DNA from: Defluviitaleaceae bacterium
Lineage (GTDB): Bacteria; Bacillota_A; Clostridia; Lachnospirales; WQUN01
Direction of reading: 5' to 3'
Assembly (NCBI GenBank): GCA_009779525.1
Contig: WREB01000053.1
Span: 1 to 7,320, forward strand
DNA: 7,320 nt
Each line of letters opens with the position of its first letter. Position 1 is the stretch's first letter. Shown here piece after piece: positions 1 to 7,320 of the stretch. A program made the translations under genes and the position numbers. The notes beneath the pieces are model-generated. The model saw only the letters and a program-made list of their open reading frames with translations. It was not told the origin of the DNA and made no database searches.

Positions 1-2
1 AG

Positions 3-1133
3 TCGATACAAAGGATTATCGAGCCTCTAGCATTGGCGCACCGCCGTTTGGACAAATCCCTTTATGAGATAAGGCGGGCGCTTTCGGACGAAAGGCGCAT
101 TGATCCGCTTAGCCAAAACGAGTCGGAAGAACGCGGCTTCCCGCTTACGGCCGCCGAATTTAACGCTGTTTCGGCGCTTAACCCGCGCTACGTTTTTTTA
201 AATGAAATTGGCGAGACAAATAGATTATTTAAAGAGTTATCCGTAAAAAAAGATCTGTTCCTTTCCGCGCTTGAGACGGAAACGGAGGAGCTCTACGAAC
301 AGATCCGGCTCGCCTTCGCGAAGGCCGCGTACCGGTTCCAACGGCTCGTGAGCGTCGAGGCGTTTCTCGCCGACGACCTTTCGGAGATATTCGACTATCT
401 GCTTCGCGACCTCCCGAAGTCAGACGCCTATCCGGAAGGCATTGAAAGGGACATCCTCTCCGGGATAATCGAGACGTTGCAAATAAAGACCGAAAGCATA
501 AGGGACGGCGTCGCGGCGTTTCACGCGGACGGCGCGCGCCTCGTCGGCGAATTTACTTCGGGGCTTGGCGAAGAAGCTTTCGATAAAAACCGCGGCGCCG
601 GGCCGGACGGCGGCGGAAGGACTCCCGCGTTTGCGGCGGTGCTCTCTTTATGGGCGGGCCGCGCGCCATCCGAAAAGGATTCCGTCCAACCCTTCTTCGA
701 CGAATGCTTCCGGTTGGAAACATTCGAGGGGTACGCGTCGAAGCAAGACAAAAGGGCCGCCGAATACCAATCCAAAATCGACAAGCTGGTGCTTCAGTTT
801 AAAAAAGAAACCATACTCTACGAGGTCAACACATACGAAGAAATCATCACCTACAGCGTTTCAAGGCTGCGCCAATTGACGGACGAAAACACACAGAAGG
901 CGGTGGCGCTCTTCGACGGGGCGGTCGCCTCGCTGGGAATGCTTTTGAAGAAAAACAACATTAGGCAGATAAACCCTTCGCCGCACGAACCGTTCAACGG
1001 CAGGGAGCACGAGGTGTTGATCGCCGAAAAGCAGGAAGGTTTCGGAAAGGGCGAAATAATCAAGGTGATTAACAGCGGCTACCAGTACAAGGATACAATA
1101 TTGATGCGGGCGAACGTGATAGCCGCGAAATAG
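3..1133 (+). CDS. GrpE-head protein with long helical N-terminal region (5' partial)
   Basis: Probable nucleotide-exchange co-chaperone for the Hsp70s encoded downstream. The last 64 or so residues match the GrpE beta-domain: a helix with LGMLLKKNNIRQI, then P-x-x-x-EPF-x4-HE (nt 975-1010), a Gly-Lys-Gly turn, IIKVINSGY and a final ILMRANVIAAK, parallel to the GrpE ending with GY-x3-D-x-xLRPA-x-V. Before this lie more than 300 residues, rich in Glu, Lys, Arg and Leu and largely helical, that I do not recognise; a Gly/Pro-rich spot (GAGPDGGGRTP) sits near the middle. Ordinary GrpE is about 180-220 residues, so this is at least 1.7 times longer. The frame is open to the left edge; a TTG at 33 could start a 366-residue product but has no well-spaced Shine-Dalgarno, so I treat the gene as 5'-truncated. 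It ends 22 bases before the first Hsp70-like gene. The GrpE call rests on motif recognition only. Confidence 0.8.
   Translation, partial: SIQRIIEPLALAHRRLDKSLYEIRRALSDERRIDPLSQNESEERGFPLTAAEFNAVSALNPRYVFLNEIGETNRLFKELSVKKDLFLSALETETEELYEQIRLAFAKAAYRFQRLVSVEAFLADDLSEIFDYLLRDLPKSDAYPEGIERDILSGIIETLQIKTESIRDGVAAFHADGARLVGEFTSGLGEEAFDKNRGAGPDGGGRTPAFAAVLSLWAGRAPSEKDSVQPFFDECFRLETFEGYASKQDKRAAEYQSKIDKLVLQFKKETILYEVNTYEEIITYSVSRLRQLTDENTQKAVALFDGAVASLGMLLKKNNIRQINPSPHEPFNGREHEVLIAEKQEGFGKGEIIKVINSGYQYKDTILMRANVIAAK
963..1130 (+). other. GrpE-type beta-domain (C-terminal head)
   Basis: This segment encodes the part of the first gene that looks like GrpE. It contains P-x-x-x-EPF-x4-HE, where GrpE families have PxxGEPFDPxxHEA, then the Gly-x-Ile-x-x-Val-x-x-x-Gly-Tyr stretch and a hydrophobic closing strand ending in Lys. 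In GrpE this beta domain contacts the Hsp70 nucleotide-binding domain and opens it to release ADP. Retention of these landmarks next to three Hsp70 genes supports a real exchange-factor role. The usual GrpE Asp-Arg-Val-Leu-Arg-Pro is here Asp-Thr-Ile-Leu-Met-Arg. Confidence 0.78.
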
Positions 1134-1136
1134 CTT

Positions 1137-1147
1137 AAAGGCGGGGG
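1137..1147 (+). promoter_or_regulatory. Ribosome binding site for the TTG start at 1156
   Basis: The purine-rich run AAAGGCGGGGG lies 8 bases before a TTG codon at 1156. A competing ATG at 1174 has GGAAGAGG ending only 3 bases upstream, which is too close for ideal spacing. The TTG start is preferred because the resulting N-terminus (HWKRY) lines up with the N-terminus of the downstream paralogue (NWDEY). Confidence 0.5.
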
Positions 1148-1155
1148 CGCGGGGT

Positions 1156-2703
1156 TTGCACTGGAAGAGGTACATGGCGCTTGGCGACGCCGAAAAGCGC
1201 GACGAGGCGTATTACATAATAGGGCTTGACATCGGGAACGATTCTTCCGGCATCGCCTTCTACAACTTGGCGGACGGCGCGCCCGAGCCGATCGACTTAA
1301 GCGGCGGCTACGGGCGCCCCACGATACCGACCGTGGCGCAGTACATAGCCGAAACGAAGGAATGGGTCTTCGGCGAATACGCCGCGCTTAACCGCGGCGC
1401 CGGAAACGAATCGACTTTCGAGGGGCTCATAGGCCGGCTCGGCAGGAACGAATACGTGGACGTCGGGAAAAAACCCGTCAGCGTCGTCTCCGTGCTTGCG
1501 CTGTACATCAGGGAGCTTCTCGGGCACGTTAAAAACATTAACCCAAAGGCCGAAATCGTCGGAATCGTCGCATCGGTCCCAAGCTATTCAAACCCGCAGG
1601 CGCGCGAAGACTACGCAAGGGCGTTCAAACAGGCCGGCTACGAAAAGGAGCTGATCGCCTTAGTCTCCGACCGCGAGTGCGTATTCTCGAGACATTACGC
1701 GGCCAACGCGCCGAAGGACGAGACCATACTGCTGCTCGACTACGGCAGCGGGGAGGTTCGGGGCGGGCTTTACCGCGCGGCGCCGGACGCGTCCGAAATC
1801 AAGATGGCGTGCATGTCCTCGCTTTTCGACGACAATATCGGGACGTCGCGGCTCAATACGGAAGTCGAGGCGATGTTCAAGGCCTTCTACCTCGAAAACT
1901 CGCCCGACGCTTCAGGCGGCGAGGTAAGCCAGATCCCCTCCTTCGCGTACATGCACCGCGACATGCTTTTTCAAAAAAATATCAGAAGCAAGCCGGTAAA
2001 GCTTTACTTCAACTTCGCGTACCCGCCGTTCATGCAATCGGTTTCGCACGGCCGGGTCATGACGATGGTAAAGCCGTACGCGGAGGCGCTCGGCCGGTTC
2101 GTCCGCGACGTTTTGGACAAAAACCTCTATTCGGGGGAAACCGACGCGCATAAGAAAGTCGAGAGCGTCATTTGCGTCGGAGGCGGATTCGAAATGCTTT
2201 GGGCGAAGGAAACGGTTTGCGAAACCTTCCCTGGGATTTGCGTGGCGGCCTACAAAAACGCCAAGACCGTCGCGTCCGAGGGGGCCGCGGTAACCGCCGC
2301 GACGCTGCTCGGAGTCGCCTCCGGGAAACGCTTCGAAATTGAGGACAGGCATCAATTGAAAACGGACATAGGCATACTTTCAGGCGGCGGATTCATTCCG
2401 TTAGTCGAGCGGAACGCCTTCTGGTGGCAAAAGCATCCGGCTAAAATAATGCTGCTTAACGAACCCTGCGGAGGGCGCATTTTTATACCGATTGCCTCGC
2501 GCGCCTCGGAAGGCGGGATAAGGCGTCTCGCCGAACTGCCGCTCGACGGCCTGCCCGCGCGCCCGAAGGGCGTAACCAGGCTTTGCGCCACGCTTTCGTT
2601 TCAATCGGACGGCGAATTTAGCGTGACGCTTTCCGACTGCGGCTTCGGGGAGCTTTTCCCGAAGACGGACTACACAAAAGAATTTAACGTAAAAATCGCA
2701 TAG
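1156..2703 (+). CDS. Degenerate Hsp70-like protein, predicted pseudo-ATPase
   Basis: A 515-residue Hsp70/actin-fold protein, collinear with the next gene but missing the residues Hsp70 uses to hydrolyse ATP. The phosphate-1 loop DLGTTNS is DIGNDSSG (residues 25-32). The catalytic-lysine segment SIKRKMG of the neighbour aligns with GLIGRLG, with Ile at the Lys position. The phosphate-2 motif FGGGTLD is YGSGEVR (196-202), losing the Thr and the Asp; the EEP of the next motif is SDR. Only the late VGGG (341-344) looks conserved. Homology is clear from shared stretches such as INPKAEI before a VP strand, and from a similar beta-rich C-terminal region (about 400-500) ending in an LxDxGFG-type motif. 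No helical lid follows. The frame is uninterrupted, so it is a maintained gene, not a pseudogene. The start is TTG; ATG at 1174 is the alternative. It may regulate or pair with the active paralogue, but this is inference. Confidence 0.85.
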   Translation: MHWKRYMALGDAEKRDEAYYIIGLDIGNDSSGIAFYNLADGAPEPIDLSGGYGRPTIPTVAQYIAETKEWVFGEYAALNRGAGNESTFEGLIGRLGRNEYVDVGKKPVSVVSVLALYIRELLGHVKNINPKAEIVGIVASVPSYSNPQAREDYARAFKQAGYEKELIALVSDRECVFSRHYAANAPKDETILLLDYGSGEVRGGLYRAAPDASEIKMACMSSLFDDNIGTSRLNTEVEAMFKAFYLENSPDASGGEVSQIPSFAYMHRDMLFQKNIRSKPVKLYFNFAYPPFMQSVSHGRVMTMVKPYAEALGRFVRDVLDKNLYSGETDAHKKVESVICVGGGFEMLWAKETVCETFPGICVAAYKNAKTVASEGAAVTAATLLGVASGKRFEIEDRHQLKTDIGILSGGGFIPLVERNAFWWQKHPAKIMLLNEPCGGRIFIPIASRASEGGIRRLAELPLDGLPARPKGVTRLCATLSFQSDGEFSVTLSDCGFGELFPKTDYTKEFNVKIA

Positions 2704-2714
2704 GAACCGGTTCG

Positions 2715-2721
2715 AAGGGGG
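2715..2721 (+). promoter_or_regulatory. Ribosome binding site for the GTG start at 2729
   Basis: AAGGGGG sits 7 bases before GTG at 2729 within the 25-base gap after the previous stop. This supports the GTG and gives a product starting MNWDEY, matching the N-terminus chosen for the upstream paralogue. Confidence 0.6.
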
Positions 2722-2728
2722 CACCGCC

Positions 2729-4357
2729 GTGAATTGGGACGAATACAGGCGCAAGATTGAGGAAAGCGGATATCAGGAGGATTGGTACGTGCTGGGGATC
2801 GATCTCGGGACCACAAACTCCGTGATCTGCTTTTGGGACAACGGCAACCGCAGGCCGGAACCGATCGACATATCCAACGGCTTCGGCAAGATACCCCTGC
2901 CTTCGGTCGTGCAGTACCGCGAGGACGAGGATTCGTCCGAGTGGGTTATCGGCGAGGAAGCGTACCGTTCGATGAAGATTTACCCGGAAACCACCGTAAG
3001 GTCGATAAAGCGCAAGATGGGCACGAACGAGACCGTAACGCTCGGCGGCATAGAATACCTGCCCGAGGAGATCGCCGCGAAGATCTTGCAAGAACTCGTC
3101 GCGCACGCCCAGGGCATGAACCCCAAGGCGGAAATCGCGGGTCTTGTCGTTTCGGTCCCCTACGACTTCGACGACGCGGCAAAAAAGGCGACAATGCGCG
3201 CGTGCGAGGCCGCGGGGCTTTCCGAAAAATTGATTTGCCTTATAGAAGAGCCGAAGGCGGCGGCGCTCGCTTACAACTTCAGGAGGCAGCTCGACCAAAA
3301 CGAAAAGATACTCGTCTTCGACTTCGGCGGCGGAACGCTTGACATAACGCTTTTTCACGTTACGGAGCGGGACGAGTCAAGGATAAAGCTGCAGGTGATA
3401 AGCGAAGGCGGCGAGGCGTACCACGGCGGCGACAACATCGACGACACGCTCGCCGCGCTCTGCTACGGCTTTATTAAAAGCAAAACGGGCCAGGAAGCCG
3501 AAGAGATCGCGATCGAAAACCAAGTCGAGCTGATCGTGCGCGCGAGGGAGGCGAAGGAGCGGCTCTCCGGGGTAAAGAGCTTCAGGATACCGTTCACGTT
3601 CTGCGTGCCGCCATTCGTCGAGCTAATAACCCGCGACCAGTTCCACGAGCTCATTAGGCCGTTCATCGACAAGACGCGAAAGCTCGTGCAGAAGGCGCTC
3701 CGCGAGGCTTACACAGGCAGCATAACGGCGGGCGACGTGGATCGGGTGCTGCTTGAGGGCGGCTCCTCTCAGATGCCCTGGGTCAAGGAAATGCTGATGG
3801 ATATCTTTAACGACGAAAATAAAATATATACTTCCGAACGCCCTGCCCTGGACATATCGATCGGGGCGACCTACTACGCGGCGATGAAGATGGGGCTTTT
3901 GGCCAAGCAGGACGTCGAATCGGAACGGATCACGGTGGAGTTCGAGGTGACGGTGCCCCACGACATCGGGATCGAAATCGACAACGGCCGCAGAAAAAGC
4001 TTCTTCACGATGATACGGCGCGGCACCTCGTACGCGCTCGCGAAAAAACACCACATTTTCACGCTTTCCGGCGAAACCCCGGACGAGATGACGAATTTCG
4101 AGCTTAAGCTGCTCGAGCGAATACACCAGGACGACCCGTACGAAAATTGCAAGCTCATAGGCGAAGTGGCGGTCGCCGGCCTGCCCGAACGCCCGAGCGG
4201 CAAGACCAAGCTTAAAATCACGCTTACGGTGGAGGAGGAAGGCGGCCTGGTCAAGGGAAGCGTCGAGGATCTCGGATTCGGGGACGAATTTATTGCGTCC
4301 GGCTTCAAGGAAAACTTCGACCCCGGCAGGTTCAAAAAAACCGTGGTGGAGGGTTAA
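2729..4357 (+). CDS. Hsp70-family chaperone, short form lacking lid
   Basis: A 542-residue cytosolic Hsp70-family ATPase. After an extension of about 20 residues come, in order: phosphate-1 DLGTTNS (25-31); catalytic-lysine segment SIKRKMG (Lys94); SVPYDFDD, corresponding to VPAYFND; EEPKAAALAY (173-182); phosphate-2 FDFGGGTLD (197-205); GGDNID (233-238); TRDQFHELI (301-309); and the adenosine motif EGGSSQMP (343-350). All expected nucleotide-binding residues are present. A beta-rich region follows from about 410 (DIGIEID; RRGTSYALAKK, compare the IPRNTTIP strand of DnaK; then GEVAVAGLPERPSG, compare LxGIPPAPRG). The protein ends about 40 residues later, so the helical lid and the disordered tail of DnaK (about 600-640 residues) are absent. 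The usual leucine-rich linker is not evident. It lacks the proteobacterial-type insertion after the lysine segment. It is a tandem paralogue of the preceding gene and abuts the next start with no gap. It is not housekeeping DnaK. Confidence 0.9.
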   Translation: MNWDEYRRKIEESGYQEDWYVLGIDLGTTNSVICFWDNGNRRPEPIDISNGFGKIPLPSVVQYREDEDSSEWVIGEEAYRSMKIYPETTVRSIKRKMGTNETVTLGGIEYLPEEIAAKILQELVAHAQGMNPKAEIAGLVVSVPYDFDDAAKKATMRACEAAGLSEKLICLIEEPKAAALAYNFRRQLDQNEKILVFDFGGGTLDITLFHVTERDESRIKLQVISEGGEAYHGGDNIDDTLAALCYGFIKSKTGQEAEEIAIENQVELIVRAREAKERLSGVKSFRIPFTFCVPPFVELITRDQFHELIRPFIDKTRKLVQKALREAYTGSITAGDVDRVLLEGGSSQMPWVKEMLMDIFNDENKIYTSERPALDISIGATYYAAMKMGLLAKQDVESERITVEFEVTVPHDIGIEIDNGRRKSFFTMIRRGTSYALAKKHHIFTLSGETPDEMTNFELKLLERIHQDDPYENCKLIGEVAVAGLPERPSGKTKLKITLTVEEEGGLVKGSVEDLGFGDEFIASGFKENFDPGRFKKTVVEG

Positions 4358-5311
4358 ATGGGGAGCGCCGCGAAAAAAATAATCGGCGAGCTGGCCGAAG
4401 CGGGCTATCCGGCCGCCTTCGCGCCCTTTGGCGCGATGGAGCGAATAAGCGCGCACTACGACAAGATTTTAGTGGAAAACGCCGGCGTGCGCTACGTCGC
4501 CGACGCCGTCAATCATTTTAAATCCAACCAGCCGCCCGACGTCCCGTTTGAGCCGCTCTCGCTTTTCGTCGCAGCGTTCCCGTGCGAGTTTTCGAAAATA
4601 AGCTTCGTCCTGGACAAAAAAAGCGCCTCAATCCCTATCCCGCCGTTTTACGTCGACGACCCGGCGAGAAGGGCGCGCTTTGACGAAACGGTCAAGTCGT
4701 CGCTCTCGGGCTATCAAACGGCGCACACCAAGGGAGTTTCGCAGAAGCTGATCGCGGTAGTAAGCGGGCTCGGCCGCTACGGGCGAAACAACATCTGCTA
4801 CATAGACGGAATCGGAAGCTACTTCCAATTGAAGGCGTACTACACCGACGCGCCGTGCGGCGGCGCGCCGGACTATCCGGTCAGGTTCCTCGACTCGTGC
4901 GAAGGCTGCGGGCTTTGCAGATCAAACTGCCCCACCGGCGCCATCGGCGAAAACCGCGCGATCGACGCGACGCGCTGCCTCACGATGTACAACGAACGCG
5001 CGAATCCGCTTCCCGACTGGCTGCCCGGCGAAATACACCACGCGCTGACCGGCTGCCTTCGCTGCCAGGAAGTCTGTCCGGCCAACGCGCCGCTATCCAA
5101 AATGCCAACGAGGTCGATTGCGCTCGACGAAGCCGAAACGCGGGCCTTCATCGGGTCCGAAACCGGCGGGCTGCCTGAGGAGTTAAACGCTAAACTGAAA
5201 TCGTTCGGATTCGAGGAGCGCGACATGCAAGCCTTTGCCCGCAACGCGGGGCTTGCGCTAAAAAATATTTATAGCCGAAACGTTTCGCAAAACGGGGAGC
5301 CGAAATCATGA
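4358..5311 (+). CDS. QueG-like double [4Fe-4S] cluster protein
   Basis: A 317-residue soluble iron-sulfur protein related to epoxyqueuosine reductase. The C-terminal half holds exactly eight clustered cysteines: CEGCGLCRSNCP (Cys181, 184, 187, 191), RC at 207, and GCLRCQEVCPAN (233, 236, 240). This is the QueG arrangement for two [4Fe-4S] clusters. Upstream, GLGRYGRNN-x-x-x-I-x-x-x-GSYFQL (137-158) parallels QueG's GLGW-x-GKN-x-x-x-GS-x-F. However, the D-S/T-x-P-x-x-E motif that precedes this in QueG is replaced by a KGVSQK stretch, and the C-terminal HEAT-type extension of long QueG proteins is absent. Known QueG uses cobalamin to reduce epoxyqueuosine in tRNA; whether this protein does so is doubtful. 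GGAGGG at 4348-4353 serves the ATG. Its start follows the Hsp70 stop directly and its stop overlaps the next start. General family call is firm, substrate unknown. Confidence 0.85.
   Translation: MGSAAKKIIGELAEAGYPAAFAPFGAMERISAHYDKILVENAGVRYVADAVNHFKSNQPPDVPFEPLSLFVAAFPCEFSKISFVLDKKSASIPIPPFYVDDPARRARFDETVKSSLSGYQTAHTKGVSQKLIAVVSGLGRYGRNNICYIDGIGSYFQLKAYYTDAPCGGAPDYPVRFLDSCEGCGLCRSNCPTGAIGENRAIDATRCLTMYNERANPLPDWLPGEIHHALTGCLRCQEVCPANAPLSKMPTRSIALDEAETRAFIGSETGGLPEELNAKLKSFGFEERDMQAFARNAGLALKNIYSRNVSQNGEPKS
5308..5311 (+). other. ATGA stop-start overlap
   Basis: The TGA stop of the QueG-like gene and the ATG of the acetyltransferase share bases in ATGA. Such overlaps commonly couple translation by reinitiation, which suggests the two products are made in linked amounts. 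Confidence 0.9.
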
Positions 5312-5844
5312 AGTATTTTAAAAAGATAGCGGGCGAGCGGCTGTACCTTTCGCCGATATGCACCGACGATTTCGAGATTTACACGAAATGGCTGAACGAT
5401 TACGACGTCGCAGCCGGCATCGGCCAGTATCCGAAAATGATAGGGATCGGCGGCGAGAAGAAAATACTTGAAAGGCTCGCGGCGGACGAACAGTGCTACG
5501 CGATGGTGCTATACGAAACCGACGAGCTGATAGGAAACATCGGGCTCCACAACATAGACGACATCAGCCGGAGCGCGGAAATCGGGCTTTTCATAGGCGA
5601 GGCGGCAAACCGGGGGAAGGGCTACGGCGCCGAGGCGCTCGGGCTGATGCTAAACTTCGCGTTCGAGTCGCTTAATTTAAGGAACGTCATGCTCCAATTG
5701 AACTCGGACAACGAAAGGGCTTTCGCGTGCTATAGAAAAACGGGCTTTCGCGAAATCGGCCGGAGGAGATCGGCGAAATTTAAGGACGGCAAATATATCG
5801 ACGTCATATACATGGACATAGTCAAAGATGAGTTTCGCAAATAA
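5308..5844 (+). CDS. GNAT-family N-acetyltransferase (RimJ/RimL-like)
   Basis: A 178-residue acetyl-CoA-dependent acetyltransferase of the GNAT fold. It opens with ERLYLSPICTDDFEIYTKW (10-28), typical of the Acetyltransf_3/RimJ-RimL branch (R-L-x-L-x-P-x-x-x-x-D). Motif A follows as EIGLFIGEAANRGKGYGAEAL (91-111), with R-G-K-G-Y-G for the acetyl-CoA pyrophosphate, and motif B as N-x-x-AFACYRKTGF (135-147). The length is normal and no domain is missing. The start is ATG at 5308, overlapping the previous stop as ATGA, with GGGGAG at 5294-5299 eight bases upstream. This implies translational coupling to the QueG-like gene. RimJ/RimL-like enzymes acetylate protein N-termini or small amines; the substrate here cannot be read from sequence. 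Confidence 0.9.
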   Translation: MKYFKKIAGERLYLSPICTDDFEIYTKWLNDYDVAAGIGQYPKMIGIGGEKKILERLAADEQCYAMVLYETDELIGNIGLHNIDDISRSAEIGLFIGEAANRGKGYGAEALGLMLNFAFESLNLRNVMLQLNSDNERAFACYRKTGFREIGRRRSAKFKDGKYIDVIYMDIVKDEFRK

Positions 5845-5848
5845 TTAA

Positions 5849-5854
5849 AGGAGG
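5849..5854 (+). promoter_or_regulatory. Strong ribosome binding site before the DnaK-like gene
   Basis: AGGAGG lies 6 bases before ATG at 5861 and is the best Shine-Dalgarno match in the window. It decides the start of the last gene, which otherwise has no obvious alternative before its DLGTTNS motif. It suggests this Hsp70 is translated more efficiently than the two with TTG and GTG starts. Confidence 0.8.
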
Positions 5855-5860
5855 GGCTTT

Positions 5861-7320
5861 ATGGGTTATTTGGGAATCGACCTCGGCACGACCAATTCGG
5901 CCGCGATAATCTACAACGACAAGCTTGACAGCCTCGACGTGGTTAAAGTCGACGGAACGGACGAAATTCTGCCTTCCGTGGTCAGCTACACCGACGAGGG
6001 GGTGATCGTCGGCGCCGAGGCGAAGTCCGGCGCGATCATCTATCCCGAAAACACCGTGATTTCAATTAAGCGGATGATGGGCTCGGGCGACAAGCTCGTC
6101 GCCGGCGGCGCGGAGAGAACGCCCGAGGAGATAAGCTCCGAGATACTGCGCAAGCTCAAGCGCGCCGCGGAGGAACAGTCCGGCGAGGCTTTCGACGAGG
6201 TCGTCGTGACGCATCCCGCGTACTTCAACGACAGGCAGATATACGCGACGAGGCAGGCGGGCCTGCTCGCCGGCTTCAAAAACGTCTACCTGCTTTCCGA
6301 ACCGCTTTCGGCCGCGATCGAGTACGGCTACAGGCAGGCGTACGCCCAGACGCTTCTGGTGTACGACTTAGGCGGCGGGACGTTCGACGCGTGCGTGCTG
6401 CAGGTATCGCAGGACGAAAACGGGCAGGAAATATTCCAGGAGCTCTCCGACGTAGGCGACATGAACCTCGGCGGCGACGATTTCGATTCGGAAATCATCC
6501 GCTGGATGAAGGCGAAGTTCCTCGAGGCTAACGGAATCGACCTCGACGCGCAAGACACGTCCGAGCGCAAGCGGGTGATGCAGAAGCTGAAGCACGAAGC
6601 CGAGCAAACCAAGAAGAAACTGTCCGGCACGAACAAGACCGTAGTAAGGATAAACCCGCTCGTCATCTCGGACGGCGTCCCAAAGAACTTAAACGCCGAA
6701 ATAACCCGCGAAGAATTTGAGGCGCTGATACGCAAGTACGTCGACCGAAGCCGCGACATCGTGGAGGAAGCGCTAAACCGCGCGGGCAAGCACGCGGACG
6801 AGATTTCGAAGGTCATACTCGTCGGCGGCTCGACCCTGATACCGATGGTGAAGCGCATGGTCGCGGGCTTCATAAAGGAGCCGTACCGCGCGACCGACCC
6901 CGCGAAAAGCGTCGCGATGGGCGCGTCGATATATAACTACCTGATACACCTGCCGAACAGCAACGTCAAGGTCGGGCAGATCACGCGCCAGATCTTCGGG
7001 ACGGAAGCCGTAACCAACATCGCCACGATGGAGCGCGGGCTTATCCCGATAATCCCGATGGGGAGCCCGATACCGATTAGGTTTTCCGACAGCAATTTCG
7101 CGAGCATGTCGGGCGCGTCGAGGGTCAACGTCGACGTCTACCAGTGGGAGGCGCGCCACGAGGCCGAGAAAAAATACATCGGCACCGTAGGTCTCGCCGG
7201 CCTTTCCGGCGCGACCCAGCTCGAGATTACGTACGCGATCGACGAAAACAACATCTTCGAGGTTTACGTCCGCGACATGGCGACCGGAAGGACCGAACGC
7301 GCCGAATTCGACAGGACGCA
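5861..7320 (+). CDS. DnaK-like Hsp70 chaperone (3' partial)
   Basis: An Hsp70 with a complete nucleotide-binding domain, cut by the right edge after 486 codons. Landmarks: GIDLGTTNS (5-13); catalytic Lys70 in SIKRMMG; THPAYFND (117-124); SEPLSAAIEYG (146-156); YDLGGGTFD (168-176, Thr174); NLGGDDFD (202-209); TREEFEALI (282-290); and VGGSTLIP (321-328). The beta substrate-binding domain begins near 393 (GLIPIIPMGSPIPI) and continues through YQWEARH, GLAGLSG and EITYAIDENNIFEVYVRD, parallel to DnaK's IEVTFDIDANGILxVSAxD. Between them, where DnaK has the DVLLLDVTPLSLG linker, the protein has SNVKVGQITRQIFG, so the conserved hydrophobic linker is missing. Like Bacillota DnaK, it lacks the proteobacterial insertion after the Lys segment. 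It is the closest of the three to standard DnaK, but the linker and neighbours argue for a specialised paralogue, so I give no gene symbol. Any lid would lie beyond the window. Confidence 0.92.
   Translation, partial: MGYLGIDLGTTNSAAIIYNDKLDSLDVVKVDGTDEILPSVVSYTDEGVIVGAEAKSGAIIYPENTVISIKRMMGSGDKLVAGGAERTPEEISSEILRKLKRAAEEQSGEAFDEVVVTHPAYFNDRQIYATRQAGLLAGFKNVYLLSEPLSAAIEYGYRQAYAQTLLVYDLGGGTFDACVLQVSQDENGQEIFQELSDVGDMNLGGDDFDSEIIRWMKAKFLEANGIDLDAQDTSERKRVMQKLKHEAEQTKKKLSGTNKTVVRINPLVISDGVPKNLNAEITREEFEALIRKYVDRSRDIVEEALNRAGKHADEISKVILVGGSTLIPMVKRMVAGFIKEPYRATDPAKSVAMGASIYNYLIHLPNSNVKVGQITRQIFGTEAVTNIATMERGLIPIIPMGSPIPIRFSDSNFASMSGASRVNVDVYQWEARHEAEKKYIGTVGLAGLSGATQLEITYAIDENNIFEVYVRDMATGRTERAEFDRT

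Follow-up and report, generated by a model that had tools for sequence, protein, structure and literature searches.

An operon of Hsp70 homologues with its own GrpE-type protein and no local J-protein in a Defluviitaleaceae bacterium: a candidate dedicated chaperone machine

We analyzed a 7,320-base stretch of DNA (hereafter, the window) from a Defluviitaleaceae bacterium (assembly GCA_009779525.1, contig WREB01000053.1), which is probably the whole contig. Six co-directional genes occupy it, including those for a GrpE fusion protein, a pseudo-Hsp70 (B), and two further Hsp70 homologues (C and D). In relatives, these Hsp70 and GrpE genes belong to a longer operon with the order F3 – F2 – Hsp70 A – GrpE fusion – B – C – D – F4. 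We regard it as close to an even call that this operon encodes a dedicated Hsp70 machine, tethered to the membrane, that has an exchange factor of its own and works without a J-protein.

Operon content, gene order, and distribution

A scan of species genomes with a DUF5716 alignment yielded 33 related loci, all from metagenome-assembled genomes (MAGs) and most of them labelled Defluviitaleaceae or Clostridiales bacterium; their sample codes resemble those of MAGs from termite guts. Gene order was counted over 40 loci (these 33, the window, and six more), with unlabelled open reading frames (ORFs) counted from 130 amino acids (aa). The GrpE fusion came next after A in 27 of the 28 testable loci and was itself followed by B in 34 of 37, a count that partly reflects choice, since B was the gene through which 33 of the 40 loci were retrieved. 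Further along, B was followed by C in 17 of 37 loci, C by D in 15 of 24, and D by F4 in 7 of 16 by sequence (10 of 16 with the F4 labels of L102, L104, and L106, which are positional only, as these proteins have no sequence match to other F4 proteins). A to D were contiguous in all five loci L102–L106, and in L001, the nearest relative, no insertion interrupts the series A, GrpE fusion, B, C, and D. The gene order is conserved, yet the unit is often split after B. According to Pfam, DUF5717_N is split between F3, which matches its first part, and F2, which matches the remainder together with DUF5717, with TPR signals below cut-off; F4 of L032 and L029 is a TPR protein, and in D of L032 a VWA domain comes after the Hsp70 part.

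The window holds the part of this operon from the GrpE fusion to D (Table 1), with intergenic gaps of 22, 25, 0, −4, and 16 bp, in order. The only terminator-like site on its + strand (173–189) lies within gene 1, and an RNA element was rejected because no Rfam family reached its gathering score. Full-length relatives of the GrpE fusion are mostly 500–660 aa long, and relatives of D are about 692 aa long and end in a VWA domain; window D is 68–84% identical to the D proteins of four relatives. B, which is 515 aa long from the TTG at 1156, has 509 aa in the protein collection. The DUF5716 model PF18980 scored 54.7 bits on window B (cut-off 34.7) and was also passed by window C (38.2); it fell below cut-off on the B protein of L103 and did not match that of L102. 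The model is therefore not exclusive to B. A first-pass annotation of the sequence alone had described a co-directional operon with three Hsp70 homologues and a GrpE-head protein, and no visible J-protein. The six genes and their Pfam matches bear this out, and Pfam found no J-domain in the six window proteins at E up to 0.5. The count of three Hsp70s is right for the window and one short for the full operon, which has four homologues, the fourth (A) lying upstream of the GrpE fusion. Its suggestion to look beyond the window was followed through the relatives, where Ig-like, TPR, and transmembrane partners appeared and a J-protein did not: none of the relatives' Pfam-scanned operon proteins has a J-domain.

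Table 1. Features of the window; all Pfam matches reported for the six genes are over cut-off
Feature	Position	Strand	Description	Pfam match
GrpE fusion	1..1133 (Pfam frame 3-1133)	+	5' end open; C-terminal 376 aa of a protein of ~600 aa	GrpE, at the C-terminus: E 1.9e-11, 44.4 bits (cut-off 25.8)
GrpE fusion parts			Helical part, then C-terminal GrpE exchange-factor domain, based on Pfam GrpE, full-length relatives, and an AlphaFold2 model of relative P0003	
B, DUF5716 pseudo-Hsp70	1156..2703	+	515 aa from TTG start; no lid; ATP-site motifs lost	DUF5716_C E 1e-14; HSP70 E 2.2e-7
C, lidless Hsp70	2729..4357	+	542 aa; ATPase motifs intact; no Arg167 equivalent; divergent linker	HSP70 E 1.8e-59
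4Fe-4S protein, inserted gene	4358..5311	+	4Fe-4S by Pfam; resembles QueG; outside the conserved operon	
GNAT acetyltransferase, inserted gene	5308..5844	+		GNAT
D, Hsp70 part of Hsp70-VWA fusion	5861..7320	+	486 codons of ~692 aa; window end precedes the VWA domain	HSP70 E 5.5e-93 (5861-7318)

The first-pass annotation had also counted a redox protein and an acetyltransferase as members of the unit; these 4Fe-4S and GNAT genes are instead local insertions without conservation in relatives, and we rejected them as operon subunits. The 4Fe-4S protein had no match, QueG-like or otherwise, in the 33 related loci (E 1e-3), and GNAT matches occurred in L002, L003, L004, and L022, strong just in L003 (downstream of C) and L022 (between C and D). 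By the QueG model, the 4Fe-4S protein is not QueG itself, as it scored 76 bits against a cut-off of 200. The C–D interval of L022 holds NUDIX-family and GNAT genes, and L003 has such genes downstream of C; taken with the two genes inserted in the window, this suggests that the C–D gap accepts cargo. Elsewhere, an HD-domain gene directly follows B in three loci, L003 (11526–12158) and, by genes of the same cluster, L005 and L022 (Pfam-tested in L003 alone). In L005, B and C are also separated by a gene for an Mrr-type restriction endonuclease (12201–13088).

We investigated the distribution of the operon in 295 genomes of the one order of Clostridia in which it is conserved (which we take to be probably Lachnospirales), a sample that includes genomes picked earlier for carrying these genes. 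PF18980 matched in 142 genomes (134 over cut-off), which divide by E-value into 50 short-type and 92 long-type genomes; because PF18980 matches both B and C and the B protein of L103 scores below cut-off, a long-type match is read as B and/or C. There were 94 genomes with the GrpE fusion (E up to 1e-15) and 92 with D (E up to 1e-100), and the two occurred together in 89 of the 97 genomes with either. Of the 99 genomes that had the long-type match, the GrpE fusion, or D, 83 had all three. When the earlier-picked genomes were removed, 69 of 74 long-type genomes carried the GrpE fusion. D had a single match in 91 of its 92 genomes, and the match in the remaining one looks like one gene split over two contigs. 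On a wider scale, 10 genomes carried DUF5717 among 291 from the class, and 4 carried DUF5716 among 299 from the phylum. D was absent at 1e-100 from a phylum-wide draw of 299 genomes, whose genome tally, unlike its individual matches, is complete at 1e-80; the best match reached 6.3e-96, and the matches listed stop before the VWA domain.

Short-type genomes, 49 of 50 of which have neither the GrpE fusion nor D (the exception being G600), carry a minimal cassette. In nine short-type loci, it consists of DUF5717 – DUF5716 – F4-like protein, the last related to F4 by phmmer at E 6e-7 to 6e-14 (that of L050 has no Pfam match); in L056, a reverse ORF masked the DUF5716 gene, which the Pfam match reveals. 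DnaK was the sole Hsp70 besides MreB-sized matches in five of these nine genomes, where A and C are absent, and the other four carry further Hsp70s or fragments. The neighbors of the minimal cassette gave no lead to its function: the ten proteins scanned (nine of them neighbors) look unrelated and include purine synthesis, transport, DUF58, AAA ATPase, and tRNA synthetase proteins.

Hsp70 homologues and the housekeeping chaperones

The window has GrpE and a DnaK-like gene, as would a housekeeping dnaK locus with an odd gene order. In relatives, this was ruled out. A further full-length DnaK, with an open frame of 618–670 aa and the best Hsp70 score of its genome, was present in all 18 relatives searched. 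Its contig differed from that of the listed operon genes in every genome but G010, where D lies approximately 167 kb from it on one contig. In all eight operon genomes examined further, grpE, dnaK, and dnaJ stand together on another contig, with an ORF of 327–378 aa upstream that is HrcA-sized, a candidate by size alone. These genomes are MAGs and may be incomplete. On the DnaK equivalog model TIGR02350 (cut-off 822.55), window C scored 206.8 bits and D, cut by the window end, 341.9 bits; on the HscA equivalog model, the scores were 208.7 and 284.7 bits against a cut-off of 708.55. The housekeeping reading can practically be set aside. The first-pass annotation had held that the order is not the classic hrcA-grpE-dnaK-dnaJ one and had proposed a dedicated multi-Hsp70 machine with its own exchange factor. 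The former holds, and the relatives keep the canonical genes elsewhere. The latter is supported by the separate DnaK and the conserved order: both conditions named as refuting it, the lack of any other dnaK/grpE and a gene order conserved in no relative, failed in the relatives.

We compared motifs in the operon Hsp70s of six loci and the window. The phosphate-1, Lys70, Glu171-Pro, and phosphate-2 motifs were kept in 20 of 20 A, C, and D proteins, and these ATP-site motifs were lost in 7 of 7 B proteins. For Arg167, linker, and lid, L102, L103, and L105 were added, making 29 sequences (9 A, 10 C, and 10 D), with Escherichia coli DnaK, HscA, and HscC as controls. All 29 lack both an LLLD-like linker and the Arg of DnaK position 167; the latter is present in 4 of 4 local DnaK proteins and in all three E. 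coli controls. According to two papers, the HPD motif of the J-domain contacts Arg167 and the linker (PMC7289447, PMC8215388). The alignment of A, C, and D with DnaK covers the substrate-binding beta region and runs to about residue 507. Beyond position 507 of the E. coli numbering, A and C retain 2–12 residues, as compared with 131–136 in DnaK, 112 in HscA, and 82 in HscC, and the nine complete D proteins have 200–207, which form the VWA domain. The helical lid (alpha part of the substrate-binding domain) is therefore absent in 28 of 28 complete A, C, and D sequences, among which the cut window D is not counted, and the VWA domain of D sits where the lid would be. Residues that we take to be of the metal ion-dependent adhesion site (MIDAS) type are invariant in eight D proteins. 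A loop length is kept in D and lost in C; we assume this loop to be the GrpE signature loop, and on that ground D is our guess for the partner of the GrpE fusion.

In the tree built from the region that these proteins share, the clades of A (support 1.0), B (0.97), C (0.87), and D (1.0) stood separate from DnaK, HscA, and HscC, the last represented by the one E. coli sequence. In a separate observation, L095 (8813–15135), from an operon-bearing genome, holds a GAP1-N2 gene and two adjoining Hsp70 genes, whose products group with DnaK, HscA, and HscC (support 0.96) and not with A–D. Another locus, L099 (8673–10941; genome G006), encodes an approximately 204-aa GrpE-matching protein adjoining a 542-aa Hsp70, a possible third GrpE/Hsp70 pair.

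The retained ATPase motifs of A, C, and D also suit an auxiliary general chaperone set, in which the extra Hsp70s would rely on the housekeeping DnaJ and protect against stress. All 17 genomes examined had a J-domain gene over cut-off, and the dnaJ of the canonical locus was the only one in each of the eight operon genomes (G005 and G006 each have one extra match below cut-off). However, A, C, and D lack the lid, Arg167, and LLLD-like linker; furthermore, they are linked to B, DUF5717, and a TPR protein, and the GrpE fusion and D co-occur. We consider this explanation unlikely.

Evolutionary rates differ sharply among the parts of the operon. Mean pairwise identity over four operon genomes was 72% for A, 71% for C, and 72% for D, similar to DnaK (73%), whereas it was 30% for F3, 29% for F2, 29% for the GrpE fusion, 38% for B, and 37% for F4; the canonical GrpE and DnaJ had 49% and 57%, respectively. 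The difference between A, C, and D (71–72%) and the other parts (29–38%) suggests a slow engine coupled to fast adaptors.

Membrane link and predicted structures

Transmembrane segments were located by hydropathy scan. In all five loci L102–L106, a protein with two central transmembrane segments is encoded beyond the gene that follows D. It is homologous to a neighbor of the minimal cassette (21% identity over 262 residues, E 4e-18; by phmmer, 1e-11 to 5e-27 in a 26-sequence set), where the next gene encodes a protein with two central transmembrane segments in seven of nine loci. A second transmembrane family, with two or three segments and members that match each other, is encoded upstream of F3 in L006, L025, L027, L032, and L107; the stretch of L023 begins at F3. 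A transmembrane helical gene thus stands next to the operon in most of the loci read. Both families look coiled-coil, as judged by eye. These neighbors suggest that the operon products may be tethered to the membrane.

The AlphaFold2 model of P0003, a relative of the GrpE fusion, had a pLDDT (predicted local distance difference test) of 94.4 and is predicted to be a helical protein ending in a GrpE fold. Foldseek matched the GrpE part alone to the GrpE structures 9a81, 9bls, and 1dkg (best E 2.1e-4; TM-score by target 0.66 for 9bls and 0.57 for 1dkg). The helical part drew no match of its own, the sole two Foldseek matches at E ≤0.001 being GrpE. Thus, window gene 1 has a GrpE domain over cut-off and, going by the model of its relative, a GrpE fold. 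F3 of L032 (2553–3731; pLDDT 85 from six sequences) was modeled as a beta-sandwich, a helical domain, and two more beta-sandwiches. Its best Foldseek E-values were to ciliary central-apparatus chains, followed by Ig-domain proteins; because the TM-score by query was at most 0.35, we take from this only an Ig-like fold, and the resemblance to ciliary proteins is probably just that shared fold.

An actin-like assembly has also to be considered, in which the lidless Hsp70 paralogues would form a polymer or heteromeric scaffold instead of acting on clients. The four paralogues and their Ig-like, TPR, and transmembrane helical partners are compatible with this, as are MreB/Mbl matches over cut-off on C and D, although such matches are expected from the shared ATPase fold. 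Against it stand the GrpE exchange factor and the alignment of A, C, and D with DnaK, which extends across the substrate-binding beta region. We think such an assembly quite improbable.

Proposed machine and related systems

The dedicated machine that we favor would be a second Hsp70 system on a platform probably tethered to the membrane. The Hsp70 ATPases A, C, and D would hydrolyze ATP and cycle on a specific client, and the GrpE fusion would use its GrpE head to reset one or more of them, D being the likeliest, and its helical part (~480 aa) to dock to the platform. The pseudo-Hsp70 B may serve as a non-cycling structural partner, and the metal-binding VWA domain of D may take over from the helical lid by clamping or sensing the client. 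Client recruitment and anchoring of the complex would fall to DUF5717 (Ig-like and TPR-like), the TPR protein, and the transmembrane helical protein. A J-protein would then be unneeded, as the platform would supply the coupling to the client. The genes with their order and co-occurrence, the separate housekeeping locus of relatives, the losses of motifs and lid, and the VWA fusion are observed; complex formation, J-independence, tethering, the pairing of D with the GrpE fusion, and the client are inferred. In its strongest form, this reading amounts to a J-independent machine whose lid has given way to a metal-dependent VWA domain, in which an Hsp70 with a dead ATP site stands in for the J-protein, and several ATPases share one private GrpE on a membrane-tethered Ig/TPR scaffold; we put this version forward tentatively, as a minority possibility.

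Several observations weigh against a J-independent, membrane-tethered machine. The L095 Hsp70s beside the GAP1-N2 gene and the GrpE-adjacent Hsp70 of L099 also lack Arg167, and therefore the loss of this residue is not unique to the operon. The canonical DnaJ could still act through another contact. B lacks C as its next gene in 20 of 37 loci. As for the membrane, the minimal cassettes of L054 and L058 are not followed by a transmembrane protein, the upstream and downstream transmembrane families do not match each other at E 1e-3, and L029 has F3 yet no transmembrane gene beside the operon in the stretch read. The interactions, client, and expression of the operon proteins are all putative.

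The fast-evolving parts also admit a conflict (defense-like) system, with the Hsp70 engine as a switch and the Ig/TPR, pseudo-Hsp70, and GrpE-fusion parts sensing invaders. Such a role has been proposed for GAP1-N2 GTPase systems with Hsp70 and GrpE, whose Hsp70 theme comprises Hsp70, GrpE, an Hsp70 without the peptide-binding domain, and FNIII-DnaJ or FNIII-TPR proteins (PMC7159879). GAP1-N2 genes occurred in 10 of 18 operon genomes (G001–G018) and in none of nine minimal ones, a difference that kinship may explain, and the Mrr-type gene of L005 would fit as well. However, none of the 12 GAP1-N2 matches in these 10 of 27 genomes was on a contig with listed operon genes (the contigs are fragmentary), and no GAP1 or DO-GTPase was found among the Pfam-scanned operon proteins (the flanking genes were not all scanned). 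Membership in a GAP1-N2 system was rejected, as linkage to the Hsp70/GrpE genes was not found on these fragmentary contigs. The single copy of D in 91 of 92 genomes also speaks against conflict, as does the absence of D relatives from viral contigs and of B relatives from plasmids, on which viral or plasmid cargo was likewise rejected. With PADLOC, C and D matched PDC-M61B, F4 matched TPR and PDC-M71B, and the Fe-S protein matched BrxP marginally; PDC-M61B is a candidate defense model, and its matches (2729–4357 and 5861–7318) probably reflect the generic Hsp70 fold. Taken together, we judge a conflict system unlikely.

In the open-access literature, we found no description of the operon, nothing on DUF5717, and one unrelated paper on DUF5716; a search on Hsp70 with VWA/von Willebrand and GrpE gave one relevant title (PMC7159879). 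J-proteins are called obligatory Hsp70 cochaperones in PMC7289447. The J-independent machine, if true, would show that Hsp70 cycling can couple to a client without a J-domain. The question is testable in a cultured carrier, Petrocella atlantisensis, an anaerobe (PMC6647913). In addition, DUF5716 and DUF5717, Pfam families of unknown function, are placed in a chaperone context.

The operon can be compared with several known systems. Like the DnaK-DnaJ-GrpE machine, it combines an Hsp70 ATPase with a GrpE-type exchange factor, but it has four Hsp70 homologues, no local J-protein, lid, Arg167, or LLLD-like linker, and a GrpE fused to a helical part. In Ssz1/RAC and Hsp110 of eukaryotes, an Hsp70 homologue is the partner of a cycling Hsp70; the operon is bacterial and without a J-protein partner, so that the likeness is by analogy alone. 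By score, window B, F2, and F3 are members of the DUF5716/DUF5717 Pfam families, which occur in the minimal cassette without the GrpE fusion and D. HscA-HscB and HscC-DjlB/DjlC resemble the operon as specialized Hsp70s apart from DnaK; in E. coli, both HscA and HscC retain Arg167, with 112 and 82 residues, respectively, beyond position 507. According to PMC8215388, HscA and HscC each have dedicated J-proteins, GrpE is believed to be dispensable for both, and HscC is suggested to act at the plasma membrane. The operon reverses this pattern, with a private GrpE, no local J-protein, and J-contact features lost in three slow-evolving ATPase Hsp70s. The closest published system is the GAP1-N2 Hsp70 theme (Kaur et al. 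2020, PMC7159879), which shares Hsp70, GrpE, a second Hsp70-like protein, and FNIII/TPR proteins with the operon. Unlike that theme, the operon has no linked GAP1-N2 gene and carries three ATPase Hsp70s, an Hsp70-VWA fusion, a GrpE fusion, and DUF5717.

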